Of a stretch of DNA of 64,000 nucleotides, positions 29,995 through 44,320 are shown piece by piece (position 1 is the stretch's first letter; every line of letters starts with the position of its first letter). This DNA is from Marinitoga sp. 38H-ov. GTDB lineage: Bacteria > Thermotogota > Thermotogae > Petrotogales > Petrotogaceae. The position numbers and the translations under genes are program-made. The notes beneath the pieces were generated by a model, which saw only the letters and a program-made list of their open reading frames with translations, made no database searches and had not been told where the DNA came from. The DNA lies in the NCBI RefSeq assembly GCF_011057715.1, contig NZ_LNGH01000002.1, positions 62,001-126,000 on the forward strand, in the 5' to 3' direction.

Positions 29995-30020
29995 GAAATA
30001 ATATACATAAGACATTATTC

Positions 30021-30187
30021 CAAACGGCTCTCCGCATGTTTTCATGCGACAGTCGCATAGGTATTCCCTATACAACCAGGTATGTAAGATGGGTAAATCT
30101 TACATCCTTCGGCAACCTCGCCTTTCACCTACCCCAAGCCTACCCTAGCGATAGGTAGATTACTCATCTCGGTTGCGCCTCCGTTTG
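30021..30187 (-). ncRNA. Lysine riboswitch (L box) aptamer
   Basis: On the minus strand the order of conserved blocks is CGGAGGCGC, CGAGATGAGTA, GGTGAAAGGCGAGG, GCCGAAG, GGGAATACC, ACTGTCGC and GCGGAGAGCCG, matching the T. maritima lysine riboswitch I know from its structure. P1 is CAAACGG with CCGTTTG. It controls the whole asd-to-dapL operon by transcription attenuation. Confidence 0.96.
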
Positions 30188-30194
30188 TTCAATA

Positions 30195-37868: not shown

Positions 37869-37900
37869 AAAACTAGCGATTGAATTCAATCGCTAGTTTT
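37869..37900. terminator. Bidirectional terminator between dnaA and cobO
   Basis: A perfect 32-base palindrome, AAAACTAGCGATTGAA and its complement, with A- and T-tracts on the outside. It ends exactly before the convergent cobO stop (37901). Confidence 0.92.
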
Positions 37901-38416
37901 TTAATATTCTATCCCTTCCTGTGCTATTATTCCTTTTTGAAAATGATGTTTTATCTCTTTAACTTCACTTACCATATCAGCAATTTCATAAAACTCTTTT
38001 GGGGCATATCTACCTGTTAATATTATCGTTGTTTTTTCATGCTTTTTTTCTAATATATTTAATACATCTTGTAACTTTAATACATCATAGTAAATTGCTA
38101 CATTTATTTCATCTAAAATTACTAAATCATATTTACCGCTACTTATTTTTTCTAAAGCTAATTCTAGACCTTTTTTAGCTAATTTAATATCATCATTAGT
38201 AATTTTATTTTTCTTTACATGATTAGGACTACCAGATTGAATAATTTCAACTCCTGGTAAATAAGATAAACCCTTTATTTCCCCATATTTCGGATTTCCC
38301 TTTAAAAACTGAATAATTGATACACTTTTTCCATGACCAACAGCTCTAACAACTAATCCTAATGATGCAGTGGTTTTACCCTTTCCATTTCCAGTATATA
38401 ATAATATCAAACTCAT
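37901..38416 (-). CDS. cobO: Cob(I)alamin adenosyltransferase, CobO/BtuR type
   Basis: 171 residues. P-loop GNGKGKTTASLGLVVRAVGHGK at 8-29, SIIQFLKGNPKYGE, Walker B LVILDEINVAIYYD and TGRYAPKEFYEIAD define the CobA/CobO/BtuR family that adenosylates corrinoid. ATG 38416 with AAAGGAG; overlaps the upstream gene by four bases. Last gene of the B12 operon. Confidence 0.95.
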   Translation of the reverse strand: MSLILLYTGNGKGKTTASLGLVVRAVGHGKSVSIIQFLKGNPKYGEIKGLSYLPGVEIIQSGSPNHVKKNKITNDDIKLAKKGLELALEKISSGKYDLVILDEINVAIYYDVLKLQDVLNILEKKHEKTTIILTGRYAPKEFYEIADMVSEVKEIKHHFQKGIIAQEGIEY

Positions 38417-39396
38417 TTTTTTAACTCCTTTCTTAAAAAATTTAATAAAAATTCATTATCTTTATTGTTTTTTATTCCAATTCTCACGTGATTATTTAAT
38501 CCCATATCCGAAGTATCTCTAACATATATTCCATATTTTTTGCTTTTTTCTAAAAATTTTTTTGGATCTGTTTTTATAGTAAAATAATTAGTTTGTGTAC
38601 AATAACTCATATATTCTTTAAACTTATTTATTTCTTTTTTTATATAAATCCTCATTTTTTTTAAATCATTTAAAAAATCATTTTTTAAAAGGTTTTCTAA
38701 AAAGGAATATCCCAATACCCCTATATTCCAAGGTTGTCTATATTTTAAAAATTCTTCTGTATATTTACTCGAAATTACATATCCAACTCTAATACCGGGA
38801 ATTCCGAAGGATTTTGTAAATGTTCTTATTTGTATTGTCTCATCTATTATTTCTGGATTATCTTCAGAAAAATCTATAAATGCTTCATCATATATTATTA
38901 AAATATCATACTCTAATAATTTTTTAGTAAATTCAGCTAACCTGACAAATTGACCTGTTGGATTATTAGGATTACCTGTAATAAAAATTATTTTTTTATT
39001 AGTTTTTTCCCTAATTTTTATAATATATTTTAATAAATAGTCATAAAATTCTTCTGTATATCCACCAAATTTTAGCGAATCTACTTTGACAATTTCATTA
39101 TTATTAAATTTAGCTATCCTTTCATATTCTGTATAATTTGGTGTAGGTATTATAACAATTGAATCTTTCATTATTACATGACCTATTATATGAAAAGATT
39201 CTGTTGCTCCAGATAATATTACAGAATTTTTTCCAAAAATTTTTTTAAAATCTTCTTCTATCCATTCTACATATGTATATTTATTTAAATTATCTTTACT
39301 ATCCTCAAAAACTTTATCTATCCAATTTGGAATTAGGGGCGATACAGATATTGAAAAGTCAATAATATTTTTATCTTTTATCCCTCCATGATTCAT
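38413..39396 (-). CDS. cobD: L-threonine-O-3-phosphate decarboxylase-like PLP enzyme
   Basis: 327-residue fold-I PLP enzyme of the HisC/CobD group. Landmarks: ILSGATESFHIIGHV, PTPNYTEYERIA, ITGNPNNPTGQF, the LIIYDEAFIDFS Asp, and the PLP Lys in RTFTKSFGIPGIRVGYV. Position between cbiB and cobO supports the CobD role, making (R)-1-amino-2-propanol phosphate for the nucleotide arm; a histidinol-phosphate aminotransferase is the alternative. ATG 39396 with AGGAGAG; overlaps cbiB by four bases. Confidence 0.85.
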   Translation of the reverse strand: MNHGGIKDKNIIDFSISVSPLIPNWIDKVFEDSKDNLNKYTYVEWIEEDFKKIFGKNSVILSGATESFHIIGHVIMKDSIVIIPTPNYTEYERIAKFNNNEIVKVDSLKFGGYTEEFYDYLLKYIIKIREKTNKKIIFITGNPNNPTGQFVRLAEFTKKLLEYDILIIYDEAFIDFSEDNPEIIDETIQIRTFTKSFGIPGIRVGYVISSKYTEEFLKYRQPWNIGVLGYSFLENLLKNDFLNDLKKMRIYIKKEINKFKEYMSYCTQTNYFTIKTDPKKFLEKSKKYGIYVRDTSDMGLNNHVRIGIKNNKDNEFLLNFLRKELKK

Positions 39397-40238
39397 ATTA
39401 TCTCTCCTAAAATTACAAACGTTAATATTAAAAAGACTACTTTTTTATATAATTTTAATGCTCTATTCAAATCTTCTATTTCTGGAAGCTTTCCTGAAAA
39501 TTTATATACACCTTCTTTTTCAAATCCTAACCCCAATACACCAGCAAAAGCACTCATTGGATATGTTGAATTAACTTTTATCCTACCATACTTTTTTATA
39601 TAATTAAATGCACCTTTCAAATTAAAAAAAGATATTATTAATGCAGTTATTCTAGCTGGTATATAATTTAAAACATCATCTAATCTCGCACAAAATTTTC
39701 CATACCATTCATATTTTGCATTTCTATACCCAAATAACGCATCATAAGTATTTACTACTCTATATATAATTGAACCGTATATACCAAATAGCAAATAATA
39801 AAAAAGAGGTGCTGTTATACTATCATTTATATTTTCTGATAAACTTTCAATAGCTGCTGAATACAAATGATTTTTATCTAAATCATTTGTATTTCTACTC
39901 ACTATATATGAAACATTTCTTTTTAGTTCATTCAAGTCATTAGTTTTACATCTTTCAACATGTCTATATAAACTTTTTATAGAAAAAGTAGTTTTCAAAA
40001 TATAAATTAAAATTATATTTTTTATAATTATTATATTTACCTTTTGAATAAAGTATATTAATATGCCCCAAAAGGCAATTTCTAATATTAACGACATCAT
40101 ACCAACAATAAAATACTTTAGATTATTGCTATATTTTTTATATAATCTCTTTCCTATAATCCCCATAAATGCAACAGGATGTATTTTCTCTGGCGGTTCT
40201 TCAAATATTAAATCTAACAATATAGAAAAAATTATTAT
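39393..40238 (-). CDS. cbiB: Adenosylcobinamide-phosphate synthase CbiB, probable ATA start
   Basis: About 281 residues, integral membrane. The N-terminal helix IIIFSILLDLIFEEPPEKIHPVAFMG matches the family's LLLDLLLGDPP-HPV-G opening; later ESLSENINDSITAPLFYYLLFG and YRVVNTYDALFGYRN are CbiB hallmarks. It attaches aminopropanol to cobyric acid. A TTG at 40220 would cut the first helix and is 30 bases from any ribosome site. GGAGGG at the end of cbiP instead sits eight bases before ATA 40238 (second ATA 40235, ATT 40232). Confidence 0.85.
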   Translation of the reverse strand: MIIFSILLDLIFEEPPEKIHPVAFMGIIGKRLYKKYSNNLKYFIVGMMSLILEIAFWGILIYFIQKVNIIIIKNIILIYILKTTFSIKSLYRHVERCKTNDLNELKRNVSYIVSRNTNDLDKNHLYSAAIESLSENINDSITAPLFYYLLFGIYGSIIYRVVNTYDALFGYRNAKYEWYGKFCARLDDVLNYIPARITALIISFFNLKGAFNYIKKYGRIKVNSTYPMSAFAGVLGLGFEKEGVYKFSGKLPEIEDLNRALKLYKKVVFLILTFVILGEII

Positions 40239-40240
40239 TT

Positions 40241-41647
40241 TTAATTCCCTCCTGCTATTTTATATATTTTTTTTAATTCAATATTCTCCCTTACTATATT
40301 TGATAATTTGATAATTTCTTTTTCTTGAAATTCTTCATAGTCTTTAATATCATTTATTATATTCATATTTTTATTTTTTAATATTAAATTTAATATATAT
40401 TTTCTAAATTCACCTGAATTAAAAATTCCATGTATATATGTTCCTATATATTTATTATCAATATTTAAAACGGGAGTATTTATATTACTTTCGCCAATAT
40501 GAATTTCGTAACCATATATTTCAATTCCTTTATATTTACCTCTAAATTGTTTTGTTATTTTTTTATCTAACATTCTAGTTGTAAAATTAAAAAATCCAAA
40601 ACCTTTTTCCTTTTGATATTCACCAATCTCTAAGCCATATACATCAATTATCTCCTTTCCCATAATTTGAAATCCTCCACATATTCCAAAAACTATACCT
40701 TTAAAACATTTTATTCTTTCAAAGAAACCTTTTTCTTTCATCCATCTTAAATCTCTTATAGTATTTTTACTACCAGGAATTATTATCATATCTGCTTCAT
40801 CAATTTTATTAATATCCTCAATATACTCTAAATTCACATTTTCATCATAATTAAAAGGTGCAAAATCCGTAAAATTAGAAATGCTGGGAATTTTTATTAC
40901 GTAAATATTTATTTTTGATTTCTTTATTTTTTTATTTTTCAACGAAGCTCCATCTTCGTCTCCATATTTTATATCTATCCAAGGTATAACTCCTAAAGTT
41001 GGAATACCTGTTAATTTTTCTAATTTTAATAAACCAGAATTTAAAAGCTTCTTTTCACCCCTAAATTTATTTATAATAAACCCTTTGATGTAATCCTTTT
41101 CATCTTCCATTAAATAATATGTTCCATACAATGAAGCAAAAGCTCCTCCTCTATCTATATCACTAACCAATAAAACATTTGAATTAACATTTTTTGCTAC
41201 CCACATATTGGAGATATCTTTATCTTTTATATTTATTTCAGCCGGACTTCCAGCTCCTTCTATAATAATCGCATCAAATTTATTACTTAAATAATTAAAT
41301 GAATCTATTATCACCTTTTTCATTTCTTTTTTATAATTTTCATATTCGCTAAAATGTATTGTCTTATATATTTTCCCCAAAACTATTAATTGAACCATAC
41401 CATTACCTTGCGGCTTCAAAAGAATAGGATTCATATATACATTAGGTTCTGTTTTTGAAGCTATAGCTTGAATATATTGAGACCACGCAAATTCATTTCC
41501 ATTAATATCAACATATGAATTTAAAGAAATATTTTGAGCTTTAAATGGAGATACATTTATTCCATCTTCTTTAAATATTCTACATAATGCAGTAACAAAA
41601 GTAGTTTTTCCACAATCCGATGAAGTACCTTGAATCATTATTTTCAA
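40241..41647 (-). CDS. cbiP: Cobyric acid synthase
   Basis: 468 residues (CobQ/CbiP); amidates adenosylcobyrinic a,c-diamide side chains with glutamine and ATP. N-terminal dethiobiotin-synthetase-like ATPase domain IMIQGTSSDCGKTTFVTALCR, PFKAQNISLNSYV, then a glutamine amidotransferase domain with Cys in GIVFGICGGFQIMGKEI and His in GTYIHGIF. Starts at TTG 41647 with GAGGAG seven bases upstream; ATG 41638 is in frame but badly spaced. Confidence 0.95.
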   Translation of the reverse strand: MKIMIQGTSSDCGKTTFVTALCRIFKEDGINVSPFKAQNISLNSYVDINGNEFAWSQYIQAIASKTEPNVYMNPILLKPQGNGMVQLIVLGKIYKTIHFSEYENYKKEMKKVIIDSFNYLSNKFDAIIIEGAGSPAEINIKDKDISNMWVAKNVNSNVLLVSDIDRGGAFASLYGTYYLMEDEKDYIKGFIINKFRGEKKLLNSGLLKLEKLTGIPTLGVIPWIDIKYGDEDGASLKNKKIKKSKINIYVIKIPSISNFTDFAPFNYDENVNLEYIEDINKIDEADMIIIPGSKNTIRDLRWMKEKGFFERIKCFKGIVFGICGGFQIMGKEIIDVYGLEIGEYQKEKGFGFFNFTTRMLDKKITKQFRGKYKGIEIYGYEIHIGESNINTPVLNIDNKYIGTYIHGIFNSGEFRKYILNLILKNKNMNIINDIKDYEEFQEKEIIKLSNIVRENIELKKIYKIAGGN

Positions 41648-41680: not shown

Positions 41681-42316
41681 TTATATTAATTCTAAAACTA
41701 GTGTATTATTTTTTTCTACAGTAGATTTAATACTAAATTTTATTTCTTCATTAAATATAGGTCCATCATATACAAATGTATGAAATTCACCATTTTCACC
41801 ACAAGCATCTATTCCTATTTTTTTAAATTCTTCAACAAGATCAAAAGATAAATCTTTACCTAAATAATTTTCTATACCTATACCTTTTTTTATAGCAATA
41901 ATTTTTGCTTTAAATCCTAAATTTAAAAATTCCAAAACTATATCTTCTCTCTCTCTTTGCCATAATGGTTCATATGCAACAACATTTTTTTTACTACATA
42001 CATTATTCACCCAATCTAAATGCTCCTGAAGATCTATATCTCCAAAAATCCCTATACCCTCTCTCACATATTCTTCTAAAAAATCTAAAAAATTTTTTTC
42101 ATAATCACCCCATGTACTACATTTAGTTATTAATTTTATATTTAAACTCTTAGATTGTCTTTTCAAAATATTTATATTTAACCCATGTGCTCTAGAATGA
42201 ATACAATCTTCTGATAACATTGTAAAAATATAATCAATTTTCTTATATTTTTTTATCCCATAATATAATGCTAAAGTAGAATCCTTACCTCCACTCCATG
42301 AACTAAAAATTTTCAT
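41681..42316 (-). CDS. DUF71/COG2102 PP-loop amidoligase, B12-associated subfamily
   Basis: 211 residues. PP-loop SWSGGKDSTLALYYG at 5-19, then CIHSRAHGLNI, GIGIFGDIDLQEHLDWV, AYEPLWQRER and the substrate motif GENGEFHTFVYDGPIF. This is the Dph6 (diphthine-ammonia ligase) fold. Bacteria lack diphthamide; comparative work on DUF71 proposed a B12-salvage subgroup, and this gene is first behind a cobalamin riboswitch with cbiP, cbiB, cobD and cobO. An amidation in corrinoid salvage is the likely role; not proven. ATG 42316 with AAGGAGG. Confidence 0.88.
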   Translation of the reverse strand: MKIFSSWSGGKDSTLALYYGIKKYKKIDYIFTMLSEDCIHSRAHGLNINILKRQSKSLNIKLITKCSTWGDYEKNFLDFLEEYVREGIGIFGDIDLQEHLDWVNNVCSKKNVVAYEPLWQREREDIVLEFLNLGFKAKIIAIKKGIGIENYLGKDLSFDLVEEFKKIGIDACGENGEFHTFVYDGPIFNEEIKFSIKSTVEKNNTLVLELI

Positions 42317-42345
42317 ATTTTACCTCCTTAAATCTAAAACAAATT

Positions 42346-42375
42346 TTCCACAAAAAGCCCTTAGCTTTCGTGGAA
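42346..42375 (-). terminator. Expression-platform hairpin of the cobalamin riboswitch
   Basis: TTCCACGAAAGC (minus strand from 42375) pairs with the GCTTTTTGTGGAA arm ending at 42346, with a short loop and a moderately T-rich tail, seven bases past the aptamer. Probable attenuator. Confidence 0.65.
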
Positions 42376-42382
42376 TAAATAT

Positions 42383-42522
42383 ATCTTATATAGGTATCCC
42401 GGCTTCCAGATCACCCTACTTTTCACGCCTTCCCAGTTTCCCAGTGGCATTAAGTGAATTTCGTCCCTGGTTACGGTTGCTGGGCAGCCTTGGACTTTCA
42501 CCAATGTTCCCTATAATAAGAT
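42383..42522 (-). ncRNA. Cobalamin (AdoCbl) riboswitch
   Basis: Minus-strand blocks in order: GGGAACATTGGTGAAAGTCC, GGCTGCCCAGCAACCGTAA, TGCCACTGGG, AAGGCG and the B12 box AAGCCGGGATACCT. P1 forms between ATCTTAT-ATAGG and CCTATATAAGAT. It controls the DUF71-cbiP-cbiB-cobD-cobO operon. Confidence 0.95.
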
Positions 42523-43372: not shown

Positions 43373-44320
43373 TTATAAATAAGAATTTTTATCCCTTATA
43401 AACTCAACTACTTCATCATAATAAGGAATAGAATCAACACCACCTAATTTTGTTATTACCTTTGCTGCAACAGCATTAGCAAATTTTCCTAATTTAAATA
43501 TATCTCTTTCACCTTTTATATAATTATAAATAATTGCTCCTGTAAATGCATCTCCACAACCTGTTGCATCTACAGGCGAAACATTATATCCAGGAATAAT
43601 CATTTCTATATCATTATATTTTGCAATACAACCCTTTTCTCCTAATGTTATAAGTAACATAGCACCTTTTTTTAATGGTATTTTTTCTATTATTTTTTCT
43701 ATGTTAGTATTTGAAAAAATATATTCCAAATCCTTATCACTCATTTTTACAATATCAACTTTTGATGAAATATATAAAAAATCTTGTATAAATTTTTCCT
43801 TATTATGTATTATAGATGGTCTTACATTCGGGTCATAAGATACAGGAATATTTTTTTCTAAAAAATATTCCATAAATTTCATATATGAACTTCTTGCTGG
43901 TTCATATATTAGAGATATAGAACCTATATGTAATAGTGAATAATCTTCTGGATTTATATTATATTCTTCATATTTCACATTAACATCAGCTGGATTATCC
44001 CTAAAAAATAAAAAATCTGGATTACCAAATTTATCTCTTGCAACATATGCTATTGAAGTTTTACAATTTTGTTGTATAATTATATTATCAGTGTTAATAT
44101 TTTCTTTTTTTAATATTTCATATAAATAGTCAGAAAATTGATCCTTACCCAAACTCCCCAAAAATGAAACATTTAATCCCAATCTACTAATTGTGACTGC
44201 TACATTTAATGGCGATCCTCCAGCTTTTTTACTAAAAAGCTCTGTATTCTTTAAATTTTTCCCTTTTTCATTAGATATAAAATCTATTAGTATTTCACCT
44301 GAACATAATATTGGTTTCAT
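43373..44320 (-). CDS. PfkB-family sugar kinase (fructokinase-like)
   Basis: 315 residues, ribokinase fold. N-terminal KKAGGSPLNVAVTISRLGL, substrate/anion region SYDPNVRPS, and the C-terminal signature VDATGCGDAFTGAIIYNY with the catalytic Asp. Fructokinase is the closest guess; ribokinase or 2-keto-3-deoxygluconate kinase cannot be excluded. ATG 44320 with GGAGGAAT. A weak AT-only hairpin (43366-43392) overlaps its stop and may terminate it. Stands alone. Confidence 0.85.
   Translation of the reverse strand: MKPILCSGEILIDFISNEKGKNLKNTELFSKKAGGSPLNVAVTISRLGLNVSFLGSLGKDQFSDYLYEILKKENINTDNIIIQQNCKTSIAYVARDKFGNPDFLFFRDNPADVNVKYEEYNINPEDYSLLHIGSISLIYEPARSSYMKFMEYFLEKNIPVSYDPNVRPSIIHNKEKFIQDFLYISSKVDIVKMSDKDLEYIFSNTNIEKIIEKIPLKKGAMLLITLGEKGCIAKYNDIEMIIPGYNVSPVDATGCGDAFTGAIIYNYIKGERDIFKLGKFANAVAAKVITKLGGVDSIPYYDEVVEFIRDKNSYL

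Follow-up and report, generated by a model that had tools for sequence, protein, structure and literature searches.

What does a protein of the diphthamide (Dph6) family do at the head of a vitamin B12 operon in a bacterium, when diphthamide is said in the available text of PMC3541065 to be absent from bacteria? The role of bacterial DUF71 proteins has rested on prediction since 2012, and the amidation put forward below is a specific prediction. The case considered here lies in a stretch of 64,000 nucleotides from Marinitoga sp. 38H-ov (the window), in which a first-pass annotation had noted a B12 riboswitch before a Dph6-like PP-loop gene and had read the product as an amidoligase serving B12 salvage. 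This interpretation is partly supported by our analysis.

A riboswitch-led DUF71 operon

A riboswitch-led B12 operon with DUF71 is confirmed in the window, far above chance, and the whole unit spans 42577-37869 on the minus strand. It starts with a cobalamin riboswitch aptamer (RF00174, 42372-42577, minus strand), which matches model positions 1-189 of 189 with 83.3 bits (E 5e-19, gathering score 31.5) and within which the feature end given by the annotation (42522) falls. Directly after it comes, as had been claimed, the gene of a PP-loop ATPase of the Dph6 family (41681-42316, minus strand, 211 aa), whose sole matched domain is PF01902 (142.7 bits, cut-off 23.2). The four genes named by the annotation as its operon partners are all found downstream on the same strand, with profile matches: cbiP/cobQ, a cobyric acid synthase with its glutaminase domain (40241-41647; TIGR00313 484.5 bits, cut-off 309.9; PF07685 134.7 bits); cbiB, the cobD of P. 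denitrificans, for adenosylcobinamide-phosphate synthase (39393-40220; TIGR00380 239.1 bits, cut-off 165.9); cobD, an aminotransferase of the L-threonine-phosphate decarboxylase type (38413-39396) that is named by context, with PRK08354 at 333.3 bits (cut-off 288) and the CobD profile TIGR01140 at 138.3 bits, below its cut-off of 290.55; and cobO/btuR, a corrinoid adenosyltransferase (37901-38416; TIGR00708 181.3 bits, cut-off 167.75). The successive intergenic gaps are 33, 20, -4 and -4 nt, and a terminator-like hairpin with a 14-pair stem (37869-37900, no strand assigned) closes the operon after cobO. The upstream gene, a pfkB sugar kinase (43373-44320), lies more than 790 nt past the aptamer. 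Elsewhere in the window there is a lysine riboswitch (30017-30191, 114 bits) with a tRNA gene just upstream.

The 55 nt between the aptamer and the DUF71 start codon contain AAGGAGGT and a terminator-like hairpin (42346-42375, minus strand) formed by an 11-pair stem followed by a T-rich tail; the surrounding 91 nt fold with a z score of -3.06. This hairpin is a probable transcription attenuator, that is, the expression platform of the riboswitch. Since the terminator scan yielded 2 sites in 5.9 kb against 1.4 expected, the hairpin alone would be weak evidence, and its weight comes from its location between the aptamer and the gene. Judging from this anatomy, scarcity of adenosylcobamide would make the riboswitch let transcription enter the five-gene operon.

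By its sequence, the protein is an ordinary new member of the DUF71-B12 group. This group was defined by de Crecy-Lagard in 2012 through the motif ENGEF/YH as against EGGE/D-x-E, and its genes cluster with BtuCDF in 75 of 102 cases and with cbiB in 18 of 102 (PMC3541065). The window protein shares with it PF01902, ENGEFH where Dph6 has EGGE-x-E, a B12 context and, as regards the link to B12 transport genes or cbiB, a cbiB two genes downstream; it differs in standing first after an aptamer, together with cbiP, in a genome without CbiA. The available text of PMC3541065 takes CbiZ as its model, and CbiA, Thermosipho and riboswitches have no occurrence in it. GENGEFHTF, in which the annotation had seen a conserved substrate pocket, occupies residues 173-181, and G173, E174, G176, E177, H179 and T180 are invariant across 12 aligned sequences of the class. 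The motif is not a new clue, having defined the group since PMC3541065.

The predicted model of the protein (pLDDT 95.8) has PH1257 and PF0828 as its nearest solved folds (Z 25-26), followed at Z ~11 by argininosuccinate synthase, QueC and the nitrile synthetase ArtA, all of them ATP-splitting PP-loop enzymes; the Foldseek matches past the Dph6-type chains are general PP-loop folds. QueC and ArtA activate carboxylates, and we count their rank, directly after the Dph6 type, for the amidoligase reading. The diphthine-ammonia ligase Dph6 itself (PF0828, PDB 3RK1) is matched with Z 25.3 and an rmsd of 2.3 Å over 202 residues at 25% identity. A Dph6 function was nevertheless rejected, because His179 replaces the catalytic-site Glu188 and TIGR03679 gives 92.2 bits, far under its cut-off of 197.3; NCBI records found as plasmid matches label such DUF71 genes diphthine--ammonia ligase. 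The annotation was right in calling the B12 role predicted and unproven: the prediction stands in PMC3541065, and among later papers naming DUF71 with B12 or cobalamin no functional test is announced in titles or abstracts, and two of these papers mention it solely through a citation.

B12 genes in the genome and its class

The genome of the window (G000; 2.26 Mb, 99.96% complete) has a single DUF71 gene and four cobalamin riboswitches. Besides the one leading the DUF71 operon, a second leads btuF-btuC-btuD and a third cobU-cobS-cobC with an AIRS-domain gene, whose product may be a CblS-type alpha-ribazole kinase. The fourth (L011:3261-6459, C15) precedes a sucC/sucD-like pair together with a gene for a membrane protein; in four relatives (L040, L043, L046, L047) homologous pairs, likewise preceded by an aptamer, are found close to the B12 clusters.

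There is just one PF00590 gene in the genome, and one full GATase_3 gene, which is CbiP; three weaker GATase_3 matches fall in ORFs of 203-507 aa. The corrin-ring marker CbiC, CbiA and CbiZ (PF01955) were not found in the genome search. The cbiA/cbiP amidation set, whose completeness the annotation had marked for checking, is thus present as regards CbiP and not found as regards CbiA. Taken together, these results make the organism a salvager with CbiP and without CbiA. To speak of salvage is fair for this genome, but the word does not cover ring-making relatives that carry DUF71 without CbiA. The available text of PMC8123684 lists cobyrinate salvagers (CbiA and CbiP) and cobyrinate-diamide salvagers (CbiP), and its variants 'Aca&S' and 'Acbr&S', after Rodionov, resemble the window set in having CbiP and CbiB without ring genes; unlike our description, these lists count CbiA and leave DUF71 uncounted.

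Among 84 genomes of the class, Thermotogae, PF01902 occurs in 17, of which 15 form one clade with the window protein (support 100/99; tree of 96 rows, L122 and L126 dropped); the copies of G040 and G005 stand outside it. CbiB is present in 22 genomes, namely in 15/15 with the clade versus 7/69 without it, and CbiP in 14/15 versus 7/69, counting either the full form (15/84 over the cut-off) or the synthetase part only (7/84; both forms in G059). CbiA is found in three genomes, none of the 15 with the clade and 3 of the 69 without. The Fisher p values of 1.2e-11 (clade and CbiB) and 5.0e-10 (clade and CbiP) ignore descent and linkage, and the co-occurrence partly reflects operon linkage. DUF71 and CbiB are also found together where they are unlinked (G052, G053, G055, G060-G063), and within genera they occur jointly in G000 only (g1), in G047 only (g22) and in all except G056 (g23). 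CbiP was not found in G047, which has DUF71 and CbiB. At three loci of relatives (L034, L037, L039) DUF71 comes after nadX-nadA-nadC-like genes, named by eye.

Riboswitch control of the clade is common and seldom so direct. Thirteen clade genomes were scanned (the window and 12 others, G062 at L038 and G061 at L045 being left out), and in six of them (G000, G042, G047, G054, G060, G063) DUF71 lies in a same-strand run behind RF00174; in G057 a 586-aa gene separates the aptamer from cbiX, and in G051, G052, G053, G055, G058 and G059 DUF71 was not found in such a run within the DNA scanned. It is the first gene after the aptamer in the window alone. In G047 the cobalamin riboswitch and cobT are separated by a HEARO RNA (L044:2377-2813, 154.6 bits).

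These data make it very improbable that DUF71 is a passenger of the operon with no B12 role. Such a reading can draw on the 63 of 96 tree rows whose fetched DNA holds no B12 gene of nine families, which implies that the wider family does other things; it is opposed by the riboswitch directly in front of the gene, by gain and loss together with CbiB in the three genera that offer contrasts, and by the co-occurrence of the unlinked copies. A different B12-linked acid, such as one on the nicotinate or lower-ligand side, seems to us a quite unlikely substrate. In 9 of 97 loci CobT does lie no more than four genes from DUF71, and DUF71 follows nadC-, nadA- and nadX-like genes, recognized by eye, in G052, G053 and G055; at the two G000 loci where it was looked for, however, the window operon and the cobU/cobS/cobC operon, cobT was not seen, and the links to CbiB and CbiP are stronger.

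Ring makers without CbiA

CbiC occurs in 7 of the 84 class genomes. Three of these (G033, G040, G041) have CbiA and lack the DUF71 clade, and four (G057, G061, G062, G063) have the clade and lack CbiA, the CbiA search having matched there just CbiP or short generic glutaminase ORFs. In G063, a single contig, cobT is followed by 20 cbi/hem genes, among which CbiA was not found, and then by DUF71, which overlaps cbiO by 4 nt. The order in G057 is cbiX-C-D-E-T-L-F-G-H-J-M-N-Q-O, a GATase-like gene, DUF71, cbiP, cbiB, cobD and cobO; in G033 it is CbiA-cbiP-cbiB-cobD, CbiA holding the place that DUF71 has in the window and in G057. The GATase-like/BPL_N gene of G057 (L202:5045-6253, 402 aa) overlaps the DUF71 start by 4 nt and is a possible glutaminase partner of it; its presence next to DUF71 is not recurrent among the loci listed.

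The operon slot is weakened as proof by G060, a sister of G061-G063 that has no CbiC. There cobT and DUF71 are adjacent with a riboswitch in front, the flanks (nagA-like, guaA) are the same as in the sisters, and full CbiP and CbiB are found elsewhere in the genome. Because this nagA-cobT-DUF71-guaA arrangement has no ring block, the pairing of DUF71 with cobT probably predates or postdates the block, and DUF71 and cobT or cbiP may be neighbours by ancestry, which would make the 'CbiA slot' weak by itself. G060 keeps both DUF71 and CbiP after loss of the ring block; the two thus retain a use where no ring pathway exists, as they do in the window.

According to the available text of PMC6461909, cbiA/cobB is present in 99% of predicted producers, and the absence of CbiA from ring makers therefore needs a substitute. 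Two candidates for the missing step come into view, DUF71 and CbiP; the case for DUF71 is suggestive, the CbiA-free ring makers spanning two lineages only. One of these lineages, G061-G063, we infer to be Thermosipho. Thermosipho melanesiensis and T. africanus are listed as de novo producers in the available text of PMC5282855, and T. africanus also among active producers in Table A2 of PMC8123684. Acquisition of 21 genes from Firmicutes is reported in the available text of PMC3403396, and cobT to cbiO in G063 comprises 21 genes.

Our favoured reading, plausible if still short of probable, is that the DUF71 of the clade is an ammonia-dependent corrin side-chain amidoligase able to stand in for CbiA, rather than an amidohydrolase of the CbiZ type. 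It is supported because close relatives that make the ring carry DUF71 and lack CbiA. As an ATP- and ammonia-dependent PP-loop ligase, DUF71 would adenylate side-chain carboxylates of a corrinoid acid and convert them to amides; CbiP would amidate the propionates that are left, yielding adenosylcobyric acid; CobO would adenosylate the corrinoid, and CobD and CbiB would attach the aminopropanol arm. In the window genome, where ring synthesis is lacking, the substrate would be scavenged corrinoid acids, of the cobyrinate type or partly de-amidated, and in the CbiA-free ring makers the same protein would perform the a,c-amidation. The likeness to CbiA/CobB, the cobyrinic acid a,c-diamide synthase, lies in the proposed function and in the place before cbiP-cbiB-cobD seen in G033. 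The proteins differ in fold and ATP chemistry, which are unrelated, and DUF71 has neither the AAA/CbiA domain nor GATase_3, hence no glutaminase domain.

The published alternative (PMC3541065, available text) builds on an anticorrelation of DUF71-B12 with CbiZ in bacteria and makes DUF71 a CbiZ substitute, which would cleave pseudo-B12 or cobinamide to cobyric acid, CbiB rebuilding the arm, or would serve some other pseudo-B12 route. The presence of CbiB in every clade member, the B12-importer genes that adjoin DUF71 in many loci outside the class and G047, which lacks CbiP, agree with it. CbiZ is likewise absent from the class (PF01955 in 0/84 genomes), although this is uninformative when the whole sample is without it. 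However, PP-loop enzymes make amides rather than hydrolyse them, and the window protein matches PF01902 only, with no homology to CbiZ. Such a substitute would also leave unexplained the missing CbiA of the ring makers and the CbiP of 14 of the 15 clade genomes, and CbiR (NF041277, 147.8 bits), which already opens cobamides (PMC7733943), is found in the fetched clusters of 8 of these 15. We think the substitute unlikely; the evidence favours corrin amidation over CbiZ-like cleavage as the likely reaction, and the annotation's term, amidoligase, agrees with the data more closely than the amidohydrolase of the published proposal.

The other candidate is CbiP. It could perform all six amidations, DUF71 merely repairing single de-amidated side chains of scavenged corrinoids, and two sets of counts point this way: CbiP and CbiB occur in four class genomes (G005, G006, G007, G009) that lack both CbiA and this DUF71 clade, and 13 of 15 DUF71-bearing ring makers outside the class also have CbiA. 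Salmonella CbiP, in contrast, is known to act only after CbiA, and in several of the lineages concerned CbiP no longer has its glutaminase. We consider this division of labour unlikely.

Glutaminase-less partners and DUF71 outside the class

Outside the class, 80 loci were fetched and 50 genomes were searched for CbiA and CbiC, 30 loci being left out of that search (23 of Bacilli type and L064, L076, L108, L114, L122, L126, L128). CbiA is present in 18 of the 50 DUF71 genomes and in 13 of the 15 that bear CbiC, none of the 13 falling in the class clade; a general replacement of CbiA across all DUF71 proteins was rejected on these counts. Either the clade differs, or the common job is amidation of salvaged corrinoid side chains and its use in synthesis is confined to these lineages. 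Both genes also occur together in G040, which has CbiA and a DUF71 (46.5% identical to that of the window) that falls outside the clade and has no B12 genes around it; on a Cetobacterium plasmid, far apart; and in the archaeal G133 (L125), where DUF71 adjoins a CbiA-like protein whose two domains stand in reversed order.

A short CbiP, made up of the synthetase part and the last helix (266-316 aa), occurs in 7 genomes of the class and in 5 outside it (L089, G092, G103, G107, G111), and several of these proteins are still scored as cobyric acid synthase by NCBIfam. The CbiP tree has 42 rows (duplicate loci L202, L214, L250 and L160 dropped), of which 13 are glutaminase-less; 7 changes are needed, 7 are forced by starred branches, and a single clade was rejected (p-AU 1.9e-7). 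Among genomes that bear DUF71, the glutaminase domain of CbiP has thus been lost several times over. Within the class, the short form occurs in 7 of 14 CbiP genomes with the DUF71 clade versus 0 of 7 without (p 0.047), and all five tree rows from class genomes without the clade are full length. The other 37 rows come from DUF71 genomes, most by sampling, so that the association can be read within the class only. As a rough control, 60 of 183 plasmid CbiP records were taken in even steps: 59 extend at least to query position 336, within the glutaminase domain, whereas the match of the remaining one (H60) is confined to 3-180, lacks an annotated CDS and was read as a broken gene; no clean glutaminase-less CbiP is among the 60 listed. 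A literature search on such CbiP found no paper.

In 8 of 97 loci (L056, L059, L061, L062, L068, L080, L096, L113), all B12 clusters, DUF71 is preceded at a distance of one or two genes by the gene of an AsnB-like protein (PF00733 without a glutaminase domain), and in some of them one or two radical SAM proteins are encoded around DUF71. An AsnB-DUF71 fusion had already been used in 2012 to tie the family to ammonia transfer (PMC3541065). DUF71, CbiP without GATase and the AsnB-like protein would add up to a set of amidoligases lacking glutaminase. A bolder version of the favoured reading, which we regard as possible and doubtful, is that the clade DUF71 acts as a cobyrinic acid a,c-diamide synthase of the PP-loop kind, independent of glutamine and with no relation to CbiA. 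It would complete the making of B12 de novo in bacteria like Thermosipho and the salvage of corrinoid acids in the window genome, as part of a repeatedly assembled, ammonia-fed corrin amidation kit with glutaminase-less CbiP and the AsnB-like protein. If DUF71 does amidate corrinoid acids, it fills a step in producers without CbiA, corrin amidation would be powered by free ammonia, and the count of B12 makers versus auxotrophs changes; CbiA has been used as a marker in environmental work (PMC6461909, available text).

Some further arrangements were observed. G107 has two glutaminase-less CbiP genes in tandem (L235:4719-6421), between BtuFCD and cobU-cobS-cobC. In G111 such a gene (L232:7429-8274) adjoins cbiC in a ring cluster without CbiA, and a full CbiP lies on another contig (L233). 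In G059 a broken DUF71 copy (L207:9327-9509) stands directly before a full-length cbiP, and the intact DUF71 is found on another contig, beside a glutaminase-less cbiP.
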